From positions 1 to 36,293 of the forward strand of contig JANXNS010000224.1 in assembly GCA_025353965.1 (NCBI GenBank): DNA of 36,293 nt, given 5' to 3'. Numbering within the stretch: the first letter of the stretch is position 1; the number at the start of each line of letters is the position of its first letter. The DNA is from Aquihabitans sp. Lineage in GTDB: Bacteria; Actinomycetota; Acidimicrobiia; Acidimicrobiales; Iamiaceae. Below are positions 2,821 through 11,039 of this stretch, in pieces. The position numbers and the translations under genes are program-made. Under the pieces are notes generated by a model. That model was not told the origin of the DNA. It did no database searches and saw nothing but the letters and a program-made list of their open reading frames with translations.

Positions 2821-3219
2821 ATGGAGCGCATGCGTCCGTACTCGGTGACCACCTTTTCTGTCATCACCCTTTTCATATGGGGTAACCGCATTTGGTTGGC
2901 ATGGACCAACGCGGAGGACAGCGTGGCCCGCAAAATCGTGTGGTCCACCCCGATCACCGCGTTTGTGATCGCTGCATTGATCTCGCTGGTGCTGTTGTTC
3001 CGTGGCGGCGATGCCACCCGCGGTCGATTCCGCCAACTCGTCCAGGTCTTTGCCGGCGGCACGGTGATCTACTGGGCTATCCGCGGCCCAATGATCTTGT
3101 TGGCCGATCACCCGGCTCCGTTCAAAGTGGTCCATGCAGTTTTGGCGATCGTGTCGGTCGTAGCCGCGGTAGGCGCTTGGCGCTCGCAGGACACGGTCAG
3201 GTCTGGCACGCTCGCCTGA
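2821..3219 (+). CDS. Small four-helix membrane protein, unknown function
   Basis: A 132-residue protein with four hydrophobic segments (about 8-25, 42-60, 72-93 and 103-121) and short polar links; no catalytic motif and no family I can name. The frame is open further upstream to 2611, inside the opposing acyl-CoA dehydrogenase, but the ATG at 2821 is preceded by a TACCGT -10 box 7 bases away, which favours this start. Its TGA overlaps the ATG of the next gene (TGATG at 3217-3221), so it is translationally coupled to the phospholipase-like lipoprotein and may act with it at the membrane. That link rests on gene order only. Confidence 0.7.
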   Translation: MERMRPYSVTTFSVITLFIWGNRIWLAWTNAEDSVARKIVWSTPITAFVIAALISLVLLFRGGDATRGRFRQLVQVFAGGTVIYWAIRGPMILLADHPAPFKVVHAVLAIVSVVAAVGAWRSQDTVRSGTLA

Positions 3220-4433
3220 TGCACAGGAGGCGCGGGGTCAAGGCTCGGTTTGCAGCGGTTGTGGTTCTGCTGGGCGGGATGGCCGCCCTGGGGGCAGCTG
3301 GTTGCAGCGGGAAGTCCGACAGTGCAAAGGCGCCGAGCACGGTAAAGACCACGACGGGGCCGTCCACCGCTAGCTCAGGTGACGCGCTTCGGCTCAACCA
3401 GATCCAGGTCATCGGTAGCCACAACAGTTTCCATGTTGCGGCGCCGGCGGCGGAACACGCGCTCTTGGTGGCGCTCAATCCTGAGCAGGCCAAGCAGCGG
3501 ACGTACAGCCACCCGTCGATCACTACCCAGTTCGCTGATCAGAAGGTCCGTCAGATCGAGCTCGACATTTTTGCTGACTCGAAGGGCGGCCTCTACGCCC
3601 GCCCGTCGCTACGGCGTCAGGCGGGGCTCGATCCGTTGGTCGACGAGGTGCCAGAGATGGCCAAGCCTGGAACCAAGGTGCTCCACGAGCAAGACGTCGA
3701 CTACCACTCGATCTGCCCGACCTTGGTGGCCTGCCTCACCGAACTCAAGGCCTGGTCCGACGCCAACCCCAGCCACGTGCCCGTAGCGGTCAACATACAA
3801 TTCAAGGACGGTCCGTTGATCTTCAACGTGCCCGATCAGACCAAGCCAGAGAAGTGGACGGCCGCGACCATGCAAGCCATGGACGGGGAAATCAGGTCGG
3901 TCTTTCCGGTAGACCAACTCATCACGCCCGATGACATCGCGGGGAGGGCTGCCACCCTGGAACAAGCGGTGCTGGCCAACGGCTGGCCCACCCTGGGCGA
4001 GAGCCGCGGCAAGGTGATGTTCCTCATGGTCAATGGCGAGCCCTACCGGTCGAGCTACCTCAAGGCTCATCCCGGCCTCAAAGGCGCGATCTTGTTCACC
4101 AATGCCGAGCCGGGCCAGCCCGATGCCTCATTCGTCGGCGTCGACGATCCGGTGACTGGCGCGTCACACATCAAGGAATTGGTCGCCCAGGGATACCTAG
4201 TGCGCACCCGGTCGGACGAGCCAGATGTGGAGGGGCGGACGGGAGACACCACACGCCGCAACGCGGCTCTGGCCAGCGGGGCCCAATGGATCAGTACCGA
4301 CTACCCCGGTCCTGACGGGGCCAAGCAGCAGTACGCAACGGCCTACGTGGTGAAACTGCCCGGGTTCCGGGCCGCCCGCTGCAACCCCGTCACCGCGCCG
4401 AAGGACTGTAACGATGCGAGCGTCGAACCCTAA
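3219..4433 (+). CDS. Lipoprotein of the Ca2+-dependent phosphoinositide-specific phospholipase C family
   Basis: Predicted to cleave the phosphodiester of phosphatidylinositol-type lipids outside the membrane (PI-PLC TIM barrel, PF16670-like). The 404 residues start with a basic stretch, a hydrophobic helix and the lipobox LGAAGC (Cys29), so it should be lipid anchored. A Thr/Ser-rich linker follows. The catalytic region shows IGSHNSFH (first histidine, about residue 69), a QIELDIFAD segment, VLHEQDVDYHS (second histidine) and a late WISTDYPGPD segment, all typical of the family. The start overlaps the stop of the upstream membrane protein. Its 3' end overlaps the opposing transporter gene by four bases (CTAA carries both stops). 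The family is convincing; the natural lipid substrate is not known. Confidence 0.85.
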   Translation: MHRRRGVKARFAAVVVLLGGMAALGAAGCSGKSDSAKAPSTVKTTTGPSTASSGDALRLNQIQVIGSHNSFHVAAPAAEHALLVALNPEQAKQRTYSHPSITTQFADQKVRQIELDIFADSKGGLYARPSLRRQAGLDPLVDEVPEMAKPGTKVLHEQDVDYHSICPTLVACLTELKAWSDANPSHVPVAVNIQFKDGPLIFNVPDQTKPEKWTAATMQAMDGEIRSVFPVDQLITPDDIAGRAATLEQAVLANGWPTLGESRGKVMFLMVNGEPYRSSYLKAHPGLKGAILFTNAEPGQPDASFVGVDDPVTGASHIKELVAQGYLVRTRSDEPDVEGRTGDTTRRNAALASGAQWISTDYPGPDGAKQQYATAYVVKLPGFRAARCNPVTAPKDCNDASVEP

Positions 4434-6395: not shown

Positions 6396-6424
6396 TTGCA
6401 GAGATCGAACAAGTGTTCGATACT
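6396..6424 (+). promoter_or_regulatory. SOS-controlled promoter of imuA'-imuB
   Basis: TTGCAG (6396-6401), a 17-base spacer and GATACT (6419-6424) make a good sigma-70-type promoter. The first transcribed base is predicted near 6431, which is a GTG codon in frame with imuA', so the mRNA should be leaderless. The spacer contains the LexA box. Confidence 0.75.
6404..6421. promoter_or_regulatory. LexA-binding SOS box
   Basis: The 18-base site ATCGAAC-AAGT-GTTCGAT is a perfect inverted repeat and matches the actinobacterial LexA consensus TCGAAC-N4-GTTCGA. It sits between the -35 and -10 boxes, where bound LexA would block RNA polymerase. Confidence 0.9.
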
Positions 6425-6430
6425 GGCTCA

Positions 6431-7126
6431 GTGCCCGTCTCCGCTCCAGACCTTGCTGCCCTCCGCCTGTTGGGTGATCGGGTCCGTCCCCTGGCCGGGG
6501 CGGGCGAGCGCACGTTGCCCGTGCCGGAGGCCTTTGCCGGCCTCCTGCCCCAAGGCGGCCTCCAACGGGGGAGCACCGTGGCCACGGGGGGTACCGCGGC
6601 CACCAGCTTGGCGTTGGCTTTGGTTGGACCGACGACCGGTACCGGATCGTGGGTGGCGGTGGTGGGGTTACCGCGCCTTGGGCTTCTGGCGGCGGCCGAG
6701 CTGGGGGTGGATCTCGAACGGGTGTTGCTCGTGGCGGAGCCAGAAGCCCGGGCTTGGCCGGCCACGGTGGCTGCCTTATTAGACGCGGTGGAGGTGGTTT
6801 TGGTTCGTCCGCCGGGGCCGGTTGACGTGTCGGTGCAACGGCGGTTGCAAGCCCGAGCTCGGGATCGGGGTTCGGTACTTCTTCAGGTGGGCGGCGATCT
6901 GGGCATGTGGGCCCAGGGGCCAGATGTAGTGGTGTCGGCGGGGGCATCGTCGTGGGTAGGTCTCGGCCCCGGCCATGGCCGTCTACAGGCCCGGCGGGTG
7001 GAGGTTGCGGTCACTGGTCGGCGGGGTGCCGATCGTCCTCGTCAGGCTCAGCTCTGGTTGCCCGGGGCAGATGGCACCATCGCGGTAGCGGAACCCACCC
7101 GTGCCCCGCTTCGGGAGGTCGGATGA
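6431..7126 (+). CDS. imuA': ImuA'-type RecA-like mutasome accessory protein
   Basis: In actinobacteria ImuA' works with ImuB and the polymerase DnaE2 in SOS mutagenesis, as an accessory protein. The 231 residues look like a reduced RecA core: the P-loop position reads STVATGGTAATSLALAL (about 48-64) and lacks the Walker A lysine, followed by VAVVGLPRLGLLAAAELGVD and VLLVAEPEARAW strands. An alternative GTG at 6413 lies inside the LexA box; GTG at 6431 is favoured because it coincides with the predicted transcription start. The stop overlaps the imuB ATG (ATGA at 7123-7126). The identity rests on the imuB context, the SOS box and the RecA-like pattern. Confidence 0.85.
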   Translation: MPVSAPDLAALRLLGDRVRPLAGAGERTLPVPEAFAGLLPQGGLQRGSTVATGGTAATSLALALVGPTTGTGSWVAVVGLPRLGLLAAAELGVDLERVLLVAEPEARAWPATVAALLDAVEVVLVRPPGPVDVSVQRRLQARARDRGSVLLQVGGDLGMWAQGPDVVVSAGASSWVGLGPGHGRLQARRVEVAVTGRRGADRPRQAQLWLPGADGTIAVAEPTRAPLREVG

Positions 7127-8733
7127 CCAACGGCAGCGCTACCCGTGCCTTGGTCGTCCACTGCCCGGACTGGCCCGTTACCGCGGCAGGAGTCGGCCCG
7201 GATGAGGCCGCGATTGTGGTGCGGGCCAATCGAGTGTTGGCGGCATCGCCCGCGGCCCGCCAAGCCGGTATTTCTACCGGCTTGCGCCGCCGGGAGGCCC
7301 AAAAACGTTGCCCTCAGGTTGCTGTGATCGAGCACGACCCCAGCCGCGATGCCCGGGCCTTTGAGCCGGTTGCGGGGGCGCTGGATGGTGTGACGCCCCG
7401 GGTAGAGGTATCCCGGCCGGGCACGTTGGCCTTTGCCACTCGGGGTCCGGCGCGCTATTTCGGTGGCGACGAGGCTTTAGCGGAGCGGACTGGGTGGATT
7501 GCGGCTGAAGCCGTGGGCCGGGGTGTGGTGGCTCGGATCGGCGTGGCCGACGGCGCCTTCGCCGCTCTGCTGGCGGCTCAGCGGGCGCACCGGCAAGCGG
7601 TGTCTACCGGGAGGTCTGCGCCGATGATGATCCCGGTTGGGGCATCACCCGCGTTTTTGGCCGGCCACCCCGTAGAGGCCTTGGCCGAGGTGCTGGACCA
7701 GCCTGACCTGATCGACGTGTGGCGGCGTCTTGGGCTGCGCACCCTGGGCCTGGCGGCGGGTTTGCCGGTGGCTGATGTGTTGGCCCGTTTCGGTGGGGGA
7801 GGAGTTCTTGCTCACCGCCTGGCTTCGGGGCTGGACCCGCGCCCGCTAGACGCCCGCCGGCCGGCGCCAGATCTTGCCGTTTCTCGGGAGCTGGATCCCC
7901 CCGCGGACCGGGTCGACCGGGCTGCCTTCGTGGCCAAAGCCTTGGCCGATGAACTCCACGCCCGCTTGGCTGCAGATGGCCTGGCCTGCATACATGTGTT
8001 GGTGGAAGCGGAGACTGAACACGGTGAAACCTTGGCCCGCCACTGGCGCCACGAAGGAGCGTTAGCGGCGGGGGCGTTGGCCGACCGGGTCCGCTGGCAG
8101 CTAGATGGTTGGCTCACGGGTTCGGCCATCGCTCGGCCCACTGCCGGCATCAGTCGGCTCACCCTGATTCCGGTAGAGGTGGTAGCGGCCCGGGGGCGCC
8201 AACTCGGGTTTTGGGGTGGGGAAACGCTGATCGACGAACGGGTCCTCCGGGCCGTCGCTCGGGTGCAGGGCACCCTGGGAGCTCATGCCGTCACGGTGCC
8301 GGAAGCGCGGGGCGGCCGCAGCCCCATGGATCGAGTGATTCGGGTACCGGTTGCCGCGGTAGATCTCACCTCGCCCCGACCAGAGGCCCGCCCTGATGCT
8401 GTGACCGAACCCTGGCCGGGGCGGGTACCGGCCCCCGCCCCGGCCGAGGTGTGGTCAGACCCCGAACCAGTAGAGGTGATAGATGCGCAGGGCCGCCCAG
8501 TGGGCGTAACGGGCCGGGCTGAGGTAACGGCGGCCCCGGCATCTTTGGCTCGTTCGGGGCATCGGCCCACTCAGCTCACGGCGTGGGCAGGGCCGTGGCC
8601 GGTCGACGAACGGTGGTGGGATGCAACTCGTCACCGGCGGCGGGCGCGGTTTCAAGTAGTGGAGGCCAATGGCACGGCGCACCTGCTCGCGGTGGAGGCG
8701 GGGCGATGGTGGCTTGAGGCAACGTATGACTAA
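7123..8733 (+). CDS. imuB: ImuB, catalytically inactive Y-family polymerase adaptor
   Basis: The hub of the translesion mutasome: it binds the beta clamp and connects ImuA' with DnaE2. The 536 residues follow the Y-family layout, but the N terminus reads LVVHCPDWPV instead of the catalytic Asp motif, and the usual S-x-D-E loop is replaced by EVSRPGTLAF, so it should not polymerise DNA. A clamp-binding motif QLGFWG is at residues 360-365. The C terminus has the GPWPVDERWWD segment and ends GRWWLEATYD, diagnostic of actinobacterial ImuB. It starts by ATGA overlap with imuA'. dnaE2 is not in the window and must lie elsewhere. Confidence 0.94.
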   Translation: MTNGSATRALVVHCPDWPVTAAGVGPDEAAIVVRANRVLAASPAARQAGISTGLRRREAQKRCPQVAVIEHDPSRDARAFEPVAGALDGVTPRVEVSRPGTLAFATRGPARYFGGDEALAERTGWIAAEAVGRGVVARIGVADGAFAALLAAQRAHRQAVSTGRSAPMMIPVGASPAFLAGHPVEALAEVLDQPDLIDVWRRLGLRTLGLAAGLPVADVLARFGGGGVLAHRLASGLDPRPLDARRPAPDLAVSRELDPPADRVDRAAFVAKALADELHARLAADGLACIHVLVEAETEHGETLARHWRHEGALAAGALADRVRWQLDGWLTGSAIARPTAGISRLTLIPVEVVAARGRQLGFWGGETLIDERVLRAVARVQGTLGAHAVTVPEARGGRSPMDRVIRVPVAAVDLTSPRPEARPDAVTEPWPGRVPAPAPAEVWSDPEPVEVIDAQGRPVGVTGRAEVTAAPASLARSGHRPTQLTAWAGPWPVDERWWDATRHRRRARFQVVEANGTAHLLAVEAGRWWLEATYD

Positions 8734-8828: not shown

Positions 8829-11039
8829 ATGGGTACGTCAGAGACCAACGCCAACGCGGGGGACACCGATCCAGAGTCTGTGGTGCCAGAAGCCTCCACA
8901 CCTCCGGCCACGCACCGGTTGCGTTGGCTCTCGCTCTCGGTAGTACTCCTTGGAGTTTCGGCCGCAGGGGTAGTGGGCTGGCAGCAGATCAAGCCGGTGG
9001 TAGATGCCCGCCGTTATGCATCGGTCACCAATGAGGTACCCAAGGCACCCAAGCTGGTAGCCGCCGACGGCGAGACCCTTTATCGCATCAACCCCGTGGC
9101 TTCTTCGCTCACCTATTCGATCAATGAATCGTTTGTGGGCAAAGGCACCACAACGGCAACCGGGACAACACACGGCATCGCTGGTGATCTCGCCATCAAT
9201 GATCAGGATCTGGCTAAGAGCCGGGTTGGCAAGATTGTGGTCAATGTCGAGCAGTTCCGCTCTGACAACAACCTGCGAGATGCTCGCATTCGCCAAGATT
9301 TTCTTCAGTCACACCAGTTCCCGTTGGCCACCTTCTCGATCAAGCAACTCGATGGTCTAGAAGGAAAGCTGGCTGAAGGTGAGACCAAGACCTTCACCAT
9401 GGCCGGCATGGTCACGCTGAAAGGCACCGGGGCGTCGGCCACGTGGAAGGTCACGGCCTCGGTGAAGGACGGCACCCTTACGGCCACGGCCACCACCACG
9501 GCCAAGCTCTCCCGCTTCGATGCGGGGCCCATCTCCATCAGCGGCCTCGTCAAGACATCGGACGAGGTCAAGCTCACGCTCACGCTCAGCGCGCTGGACC
9601 CCACAACTCACAGCATTCCCACCACGCTCCAGGGTACGAACCGGGCCGCGGCCACGTCCGCCAAGGCGGCCGGTCCGTCATTTTCCAACGTGGTGCAGCC
9701 CATCATCGAGGCCAACTGCGCTTCCTGCCACAACACCGGCCAAATGGGTGCCCGCCAGGTTCGGATGGATACTGCCGGTGACCTCCAAAAAGTCTCCGAT
9801 GGCATCAAGACCGTCACCCAAGCTGGCTACATGCCACCGTGGCCAGCATCCACCAAGGGGGTTGCGCTGTCGCACGTAGCCAAGCTGTCAGAGAAAGAAC
9901 TGGCCGCGCTGGCCGCATGGTCAGATGCCGGCGGCCCGCTCGATGTTGCTGCCTCCACCAAGGTCGCTATGACCAAGGCGGCGGCCACCTTGCTGCCCCG
10001 CAAAGACCAGACCCTCACGATTCCGTCGTATACTGGGTCACTCACAAACAACAACGATTACCGCTGCTTCGTGCTGGACCCCAAGATCACCAAGAAGACG
10101 TACCTCACGGGGTACACCTTCGAGGGCGATCAGATCGAGCAACTGCACCACGCTCAGGTCTTCCTGATCAGTGACGAGCAAATGGCCGCATCGAAAGCGA
10201 AAGACGGCAAGGACGGCCAACCAGGGTGGGGTTGCTATAGCGGCCCGGAGCTCCGGGGCCGCCGCCCCGATCGCGTTGCCGGTGCGCCGCGCCAGCGAGA
10301 TGCCGGGTTTACGGGCCAGGCCAACCTGGTTGCGGGCTGGGTACCCGGGCAATCTCCGGTCATCTTCCCGGAAAACTCGGGCATGCTCCTGCACCCCGGA
10401 GATGCCTTGGTGTTGCAATTGCACTACCACTACAGCGATGCGCCGGTCGCTGACCGGTCTGGGTTGTCACTGCAGCTGGATGCTGGAGACAGCAACACCC
10501 GGGAGCTTCGGGTCATCAATCCGTTGGGTCCGGTGGAGATCCCCTGCGCCCCGAAAGATGTCAACGAGCCGCTGTGCGATCGCGACGCGGCCATCGCCGA
10601 CAACGTCAAGCTGTATGGCCCCTCTGGTGCTGGCAACGAGTTTGGGTTGCTATCGCTCTGTGGCCACACGCCGGAGGAGCTGACCAAGGGATTCACTGGC
10701 ACGGTCGCCTCGTCGTCGTGCGTTGCCCGAGTTCCTCAAGACGGTGTCATTGTTGCGGCCATGGGCCACATGCACACGCTGGGCAAGAGCATCCGGCTCA
10801 CCTTGGCCCCAGATTCGGCCAAGGAGAAGATCCTGCTCGACATTCCAACATGGAGCTTCGACTGGCAGATGAACTACGCCTTCAAGAAGCCAGTTCGGGT
10901 TACTGCCGGCGAAGAACTGCGCATTGATTGTAGCTGGGATCGTTCGAGAGACCCGCTCCGGAAGCCCAAATATATCGTGTTCGCGGAGGGTACCGAGGAC
11001 GAAATGTGCTTCGGTACGTACTCCCTCATTCCGGACTAG
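8829..11039 (+). CDS. YceI - cytochrome c - PHM-like copper monooxygenase fusion, membrane anchored
   Basis: A three-module extracytoplasmic redox protein of 736 residues. A cytoplasmic tail precedes one membrane helix (about 32-50). Residues about 80-258 form a YceI lipocalin-like barrel, a domain that binds isoprenoid or amphiphilic ligands. Residues 285-372 are a c-type heme domain: CASCH (Cys297, Cys300, His301) and a likely distal Met335 in GYMPPW. Residues 395-736 resemble the two copper domains of peptidylglycine-type type II monooxygenases, with all copper ligands recognisable: His440-His441, His532 in LHYHY, His647 and His649 in GHMHTLG, Met726 in DEMCF. The start at 8829 follows AAGGGG. 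The predicted chemistry is copper hydroxylation with heme-delivered electrons, possibly on a YceI-bound lipid; the substrate is unknown. The domain calls are strong, the mechanism is inferred. Confidence 0.88.
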   Translation: MGTSETNANAGDTDPESVVPEASTPPATHRLRWLSLSVVLLGVSAAGVVGWQQIKPVVDARRYASVTNEVPKAPKLVAADGETLYRINPVASSLTYSINESFVGKGTTTATGTTHGIAGDLAINDQDLAKSRVGKIVVNVEQFRSDNNLRDARIRQDFLQSHQFPLATFSIKQLDGLEGKLAEGETKTFTMAGMVTLKGTGASATWKVTASVKDGTLTATATTTAKLSRFDAGPISISGLVKTSDEVKLTLTLSALDPTTHSIPTTLQGTNRAAATSAKAAGPSFSNVVQPIIEANCASCHNTGQMGARQVRMDTAGDLQKVSDGIKTVTQAGYMPPWPASTKGVALSHVAKLSEKELAALAAWSDAGGPLDVAASTKVAMTKAAATLLPRKDQTLTIPSYTGSLTNNNDYRCFVLDPKITKKTYLTGYTFEGDQIEQLHHAQVFLISDEQMAASKAKDGKDGQPGWGCYSGPELRGRRPDRVAGAPRQRDAGFTGQANLVAGWVPGQSPVIFPENSGMLLHPGDALVLQLHYHYSDAPVADRSGLSLQLDAGDSNTRELRVINPLGPVEIPCAPKDVNEPLCDRDAAIADNVKLYGPSGAGNEFGLLSLCGHTPEELTKGFTGTVASSSCVARVPQDGVIVAAMGHMHTLGKSIRLTLAPDSAKEKILLDIPTWSFDWQMNYAFKKPVRVTAGEELRIDCSWDRSRDPLRKPKYIVFAEGTEDEMCFGTYSLIPD

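Follow-up and report, generated by a model that had tools for sequence, protein, structure and literature searches.

The copper monooxygenases PHM and DBH make animal hormones and neurotransmitters, human DBH being the source of noradrenaline, and how electrons bridge the distance from one of their copper sites to the other remains a matter of debate. They have been described as a eukaryotic class in which one copper (CuM) binds O2 and substrate, the other (CuH) transfers electrons and ascorbate gives two electrons (PMC4846438). A gene of the actinobacterium Aquihabitans sp. raises the question of where a copper core of this type could obtain its electrons in a bacterium. The gene lies in a window of 36,293 nucleotides (the whole stretch of DNA analysed), and a sequence-only reading had proposed that its product joins a YceI barrel, a c-type heme and a PHM-like copper monooxygenase, the heme being placed to act instead of ascorbate and the barrel perhaps holding an isoprenoid-like substrate. 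The features relevant to this question, in window coordinates, are as follows.

8829..11039, + strand: whole gene, predicted YceI-heme c-copper monooxygenase of 736 aa (ORF, Pfam, homologues, conserved sites, start region)
8913..9014, + strand: N-terminal transmembrane anchor helix, residues 29-62 (predicted helix; hydrophobic segment in many relatives)
9081..9590, + strand: YceI lipocalin-like barrel, residues 85-254 (Pfam PF04264, fold match)
9666..9962, + strand: monoheme cytochrome c domain, residues 280-378 (Pfam Cytochrome_CBB3, CcoP profile match, PccH fold match)
9717..9731, + strand: CASCH heme attachment motif, residues 297-301 (Cys, Cys and His in 49/49)
9831..9833, + strand: Met335 in an MPPW motif, likely distal heme ligand (49/49)
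10026..10484, + strand: CuH domain, about residues 400-552 (profile and fold match to PHM/DBH)
10146..10151, + strand: His440-His441, CuH ligands (aligned with HH of DBH and PHM; 49/49)
10422..10424, + strand: His532, third CuH ligand (aligned with VHY/QVHY of DBH/PHM; 49/49)
10710..11036, + strand: CuM domain, residues 628-736 (Pfam PF03712, E 5.5e-9)
10767..10775, + strand: His647-x-His649, CuM ligands (aligned with HTH of DBH; 49/49)
11004..11006, + strand: Met726 in an EMC motif, third CuM ligand (aligned with DEMC of PHM; 49/49)

The open reading frame starts at an ATG (8829) with an AAGGGG ribosome-binding sequence just upstream and ends at the stop codon 11037-11039. Full-length relatives of 74% identity, such as the one carried by Aquihabitans sp. 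G128, which matches across nearly the entire length, rule out a chance reading frame or a frame error together with the invariant sites described below. From the N-terminus onwards, the protein consists of a membrane helix, a YceI barrel, a monoheme cytochrome c domain and a two-domain copper core, and its full-length AlphaFold2 model, based on a 49-sequence alignment, has a pLDDT of 85 and a pTM of 0.72. Pfam, family profile and fold matches make it virtually certain that YceI, heme c and a PHM/DBH-type copper core are joined in one chain, as had been proposed; in the Pfam search YceI and Cu2_monoox_C scored above their cut-offs, and the cytochrome and the N-terminal copper half below. The membrane anchor (helix 29-62) and Met335 are additions to the features listed by the sequence-only reading. 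Scans for promoters and terminators yielded nothing useful.

The gene is flanked by ImuA/ImuB-like genes upstream and by a flotillin-like gene, a desaturase and PhoD downstream. An operon with these neighbours was considered and rejected: the flanking genes are kept only within the genus, and therefore no functional link is claimed. The ImuA-like and ImuB-like (IMS family) genes occupy window positions 6413-8733, immediately upstream, and are unlinked to the enzyme. Elsewhere in the window, positions 2892-4433 encode a protein whose predicted family is Ca-dependent phosphoinositide phospholipase C (PF16670, E 8.5e-121), here in a bacterial host.

The YceI module is the most readily recognized. 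PF04264 matches residues 85-254 (E 1.3e-19; 71.5 bits against a cut-off of 23.7), and residues 83-258 of the predicted structure match BcnA (Z 18.9, the best match) and E. coli YceI (Z 18.3), so that profile and fold both place the barrel in the YceI family, within the limits first suggested (about 80-258).

Assignment of the copper core required more than Pfam. Its C-terminal half is matched by Cu2_monoox_C (PF03712) at residues 628-728 (E 5.5e-9), above the curated cut-off. The N-terminal half scores weakly (E 0.042; 14.5 bits, below the cut-off of 30), a gap that is closed by a family profile built from 26 members, which matches DBH (3.7e-6) and PHM (1.5e-4) among PDB sequences and lines up the HH, HxH and EMC motifs with theirs. 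Residues 391-736 of the predicted structure match PHM (VIA-align Z 23.6, rmsd 2.4 over 256 residues) and DBH (Z 23.0), with a Foldseek E of 2.5e-15 for the PHM/DBH fold; the model thus agrees with the PHM-like two-domain fold expected earlier. The core displays the features of PHM/DBH type II enzymes, namely two beta domains, a CuH site of His-His plus His and a CuM site of His-x-His plus Met. All six copper ligands named by the sequence-only reading (H440, H441, H532, H647, H649 and M726) are present and aligned with those of DBH and PHM, and neither they nor Q530 ever vary among 49 homologues reaching down to 33% identity. Eight more cysteines (413, 469, 573, 583, 611, 631, 701 and 727) are also invariant. 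Two of these, 413 and 469, align with DBH cysteines 232-283, a disulfide pair (PMC4846438).

By analogy with the family, from which the hydroxylation chemistry is taken, the copper core most likely acts as a monooxygenase. PHM-style peptide amidation, as judged from aligned residues, is an unlikely function. Arg240 and Tyr318 of PHM, which we take to be the anchors of the substrate carboxylate, presumably correspond to positions 645 and 730 here. Position 645 (two before H647) is Leu, Met or Phe and position 730 (four after M726) is mostly Thr or Ser in the 49 sequences, none of which (0/49) has the PHM-type Arg or Tyr. Since these anchor positions are not conserved, the core is unlikely to belong to a peptide amidation enzyme despite being of PHM/DBH type.

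Identification of the heme domain depends chiefly on its invariant residues. Cytochrome_CBB3 matches residues 292-341 with E 5e-5, slightly below the curated cut-off, and the heme-domain profile matches CcoP at E 2.5e-4 and cytochromes overall at E 2e-4 to 1e-3. Modelled alone, the domain has a pLDDT of 88.9 and finds the monoheme cytochrome PccH as its top VIA match, with a Z of only 6.2; Foldseek with the isolated domain gave no significant cytochrome match. C297, C300, H301 and M335 are invariant in 49/49 aligned homologues, and their spacing is constant in 48/49. The CASCH motif and monoheme domain had been recognized beforehand; with Met335 likely to be the sixth ligand of the heme, the arrangement is CxxCH with a distal Met, as in class I-like c-type cytochromes. 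Every YceI-bearing sequence aligned also has the heme.

Gene position adds to this picture. Genes ccmE, ccmF and ccmH are present in the host genome, which hence has machinery for heme c attachment. At 19 of the 80 loci with a homologue, ccmF is encoded on the same strand about 2.2-2.6 kb upstream of it. At one such locus (L077) the order is ccmC-E-F-G-H-I-gene, with 22 bp between the last ccm gene and the gene start; Pfam identifies ccmC, ccmE, ccmF and ccmH, a ccmG of thioredoxin type and a ccmI-like TPR protein, and the homologue is followed by a histidine phosphatase gene. The host's own system I locus, ccmA to ccmI (L157 = G000:C214, 2563-9966; ccmA and ccmB identified by reading only), also adjoins a histidine phosphatase gene and is without the YceI-heme-copper gene. 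In one sub-clade, then, gene position links the protein with cytochrome c maturation, and its place directly after a system I ccm operon supports real heme attachment. This linkage, the invariant heme site and the occurrence of heme in every YceI-bearing form lend indirect support to the earlier suggestion that heme stands in ascorbate's place. Heme c is probably the electron donor, although the transfer from heme to copper is a step that we infer.

The architecture is no oddity of a single genome. Full-length homologues occur across the genus, family and order among 61 near genomes, and a survey of the order Acidimicrobiales found the full YceI-heme-copper form to be widespread, in at least 52 of 397 genomes (56 matches). 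Heme-copper proteins without YceI gave at least about 48 matches and copper-only proteins at least about 17, all these order-wide counts being lower bounds with up to two candidates scored per genome. In a phylum sample of 396 genomes the copper core was present in 15 of about 30 members of this order versus 1 of about 366 outside it. When 84,980 species genomes were scanned with patterns from this enzyme family, which would miss distant relatives in other phyla, nearly all of the 80 best loci obtained belonged to records labelled Acidimicrobiia or uncultured actinobacteria. Three records named Bifidobacterium breve or Acidobacteria (L043, L047 and L069) carry homologues that fall inside the Acidimicrobiales family, by tree for L043 and L069 and by similarity for L047, and their names look wrong. 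At L089, L096 and L104 both flanks of the homologue hold lipoprotein-like genes of HTCALRxDGxVxCWG repeats (RCC1-like). A plasmid origin was rejected, a plasmid collection having given one copper-only Nonomuraea relative, one weak YceI match and no DNA match.

A tree built from 90 copper cores divides into a copper-only group (100/100) and a group of all the heme-carrying proteins, and the YceI label requires three changes on it. When YceI barrels from 47 fusions are compared with seven stand-alone barrels from Acidimicrobiales, those of the fusions fall into a single clade (100/100), which indicates that the fusion probably arose once; the barrel was probably lost later in some lineages. The simplest history has one gain of heme by the copper core, one gain of YceI and repeated loss of YceI. 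Several YceI-less forms have a lipobox-like signal where others have the membrane helix, and YceI-bearing and YceI-less forms coexist in genomes G352, G383, G529 and G581. The full architecture is old and conserved within Acidimicrobiales. Tandem pairs of heme-copper and copper-only proteins at L141 (G627:C14) and L155 (G487:C69) point to repeated duplication of copper cores.

Taken as a whole, we are somewhat inclined to regard the protein as a hydroxylase that is anchored in the membrane and extracytoplasmic, with heme c in the role of ascorbate and quinol supplying electrons via YceI. This reading builds on the domains, the conserved ligands, the fold, the probable single origin of the fusion and the link to heme-attachment genes. 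The anchored protein would face away from the cytoplasm and use O2 to hydroxylate a small molecule or lipid, CuM taking O2 and substrate and CuH relaying electrons. The covalent heme c, which adjoins the core in sequence, would stand in for ascorbate. The anchor would hold the barrel at the membrane, where it most likely binds quinol, presumably menaquinol, and feeds the heme; electrons would then run from quinol through heme c and CuH to CuM.

Ligands recorded for the YceI fold include, among others, polyprenyl lipids and antibiotics. Ubiquinone-8 is a ligand of YceI proteins, and in Cellvibrio Cbp2D a YceI domain is fused with domains of cytochrome c type, among them one that acts as a reductant of copper LPMOs (PMC8981238). 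YceI-cytochrome b561 fusions also exist, and reduction of bound quinone has been proposed for them (PMC9113575). The host genome has menA, which makes menaquinol the likely pool. Together with the paralogues described next, these observations favour a quinol route through YceI, a step that we infer and consider nearly as likely to be right as wrong, with the balance slightly against it. YceI is absent from several lineages that retain heme and copper, and is thus not essential to every member.

Genome G486 contains, on a 1.7 Mb contig, two tandem YceI-heme-copper genes (L143 / L178, C1:1518900-1525000). They share an exact 1034-bp DNA block from the membrane helix through the end of the heme domain; their copper cores have diverged to about 70% DNA identity on average, and the border of identity is the border between the heme and copper domains. 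The block fits a shared donor cassette serving different catalytic heads. It could also stem from gene conversion of no functional consequence, or from faulty assembly, and G486 is the single case: within-genome pairs of G027, G041, G609 and G553 had no such sharp module boundary. We put forward only tentatively, and with less conviction than the quinol route itself, a self-contained quinol-driven monooxygenase in which electrons would pass from menaquinol in YceI to heme c and on to both coppers, with helix, YceI and heme as a swappable power cassette.

The main rival to the quinol route takes up the suggestion of the sequence-only reading that the barrel is a substrate holder: YceI would present an isoprenoid or other lipid for hydroxylation by the copper core, and another cytochrome of the respiratory chain would reduce heme c. 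Polyisoprenoids are known ligands of YceI barrels (PMC9113575), the anchor keeps the protein membrane-bound, and the lack of conservation at the PHM carboxylate positions indicates that the substrate is no PHM-type peptide. Against this, the catalytic residues are kept in heme-copper forms without YceI, and the identical YceI-heme block of G486 with two diverged copper cores would be odd if YceI set the substrate. Substrate holding is possible for the barrel, yet the donor role fits better with ubiquinone-8 binding, cytochrome fusions elsewhere and one identical block serving two cores, and we rate this rival as rather unlikely. Less probable still is a mainly protective function, in which YceI and heme would quench lipid peroxyl radicals or peroxides of the membrane and the copper core would be an oxidase or radical sink instead of a specific hydroxylase. 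BcnA, the best YceI fold match, does act with a cytochrome b561 to guard Burkholderia membranes against lipid peroxidation (PMC9113575), but a mere scavenger does not need the full two-site PHM/DBH ligand set, CuM methionine included. That the core is without catalytic activity, or functions in storing or sensing copper, would agree with literature searches that found no paper on the activity of a bacterial member, but is made very improbable by the complete ligands, the conserved cysteines and Q530 near H532 across about 33-75% identity.

A quinol-driven monooxygenase of this kind would be, to our knowledge, the first PHM/DBH-type enzyme to run on the respiratory chain instead of ascorbate, and we know of no activity for any bacterial member of this copper-core group. 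Literature searches of open papers found no prior description of a bacterial YceI-heme-copper enzyme; the enzyme family is real and conserved, and apparently uncharacterised. With a built-in heme, the electron path could be followed by heme colour in single turnovers, free of ascorbate. Such an enzyme would show a meeting point of respiration and PHM/DBH oxygen chemistry, and would point to an oxidised product throughout an order of bacteria that are common and little studied.

Compared with known systems, the protein shares with PHM the two-domain core, all six copper ligands and a close fold; unlike PHM it is bacterial, fused to heme c and YceI, and devoid of the carboxylate-anchor residues. 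DBH has the same core, and its N-terminal DOMON has the fold of heme-binding cytochrome domains (PMC4846438), but DOMON is no c-type cytochrome, the donor is ascorbate and YceI is lacking. Cbp2D of Cellvibrio japonicus likewise combines YceI (X158) and c-type cytochromes in one chain, one of them reducing copper monooxygenases (PMC8981238), whereas in that system the copper enzyme is an LPMO, a protein of its own with a different fold, and Cbp2D also has a carbohydrate-binding module. In LcoA-BcnA (cytochrome b561 and YceI lipocalin) a YceI barrel is also joined to a membrane heme protein (PMC9113575), but its heme b sits in a membrane bundle and there is no copper core. The YceI-less heme-copper lipoprotein-like proteins of Acidimicrobiales have the same heme domain and copper core and differ in the missing YceI and, in several, a lipobox-like signal and no membrane helix.
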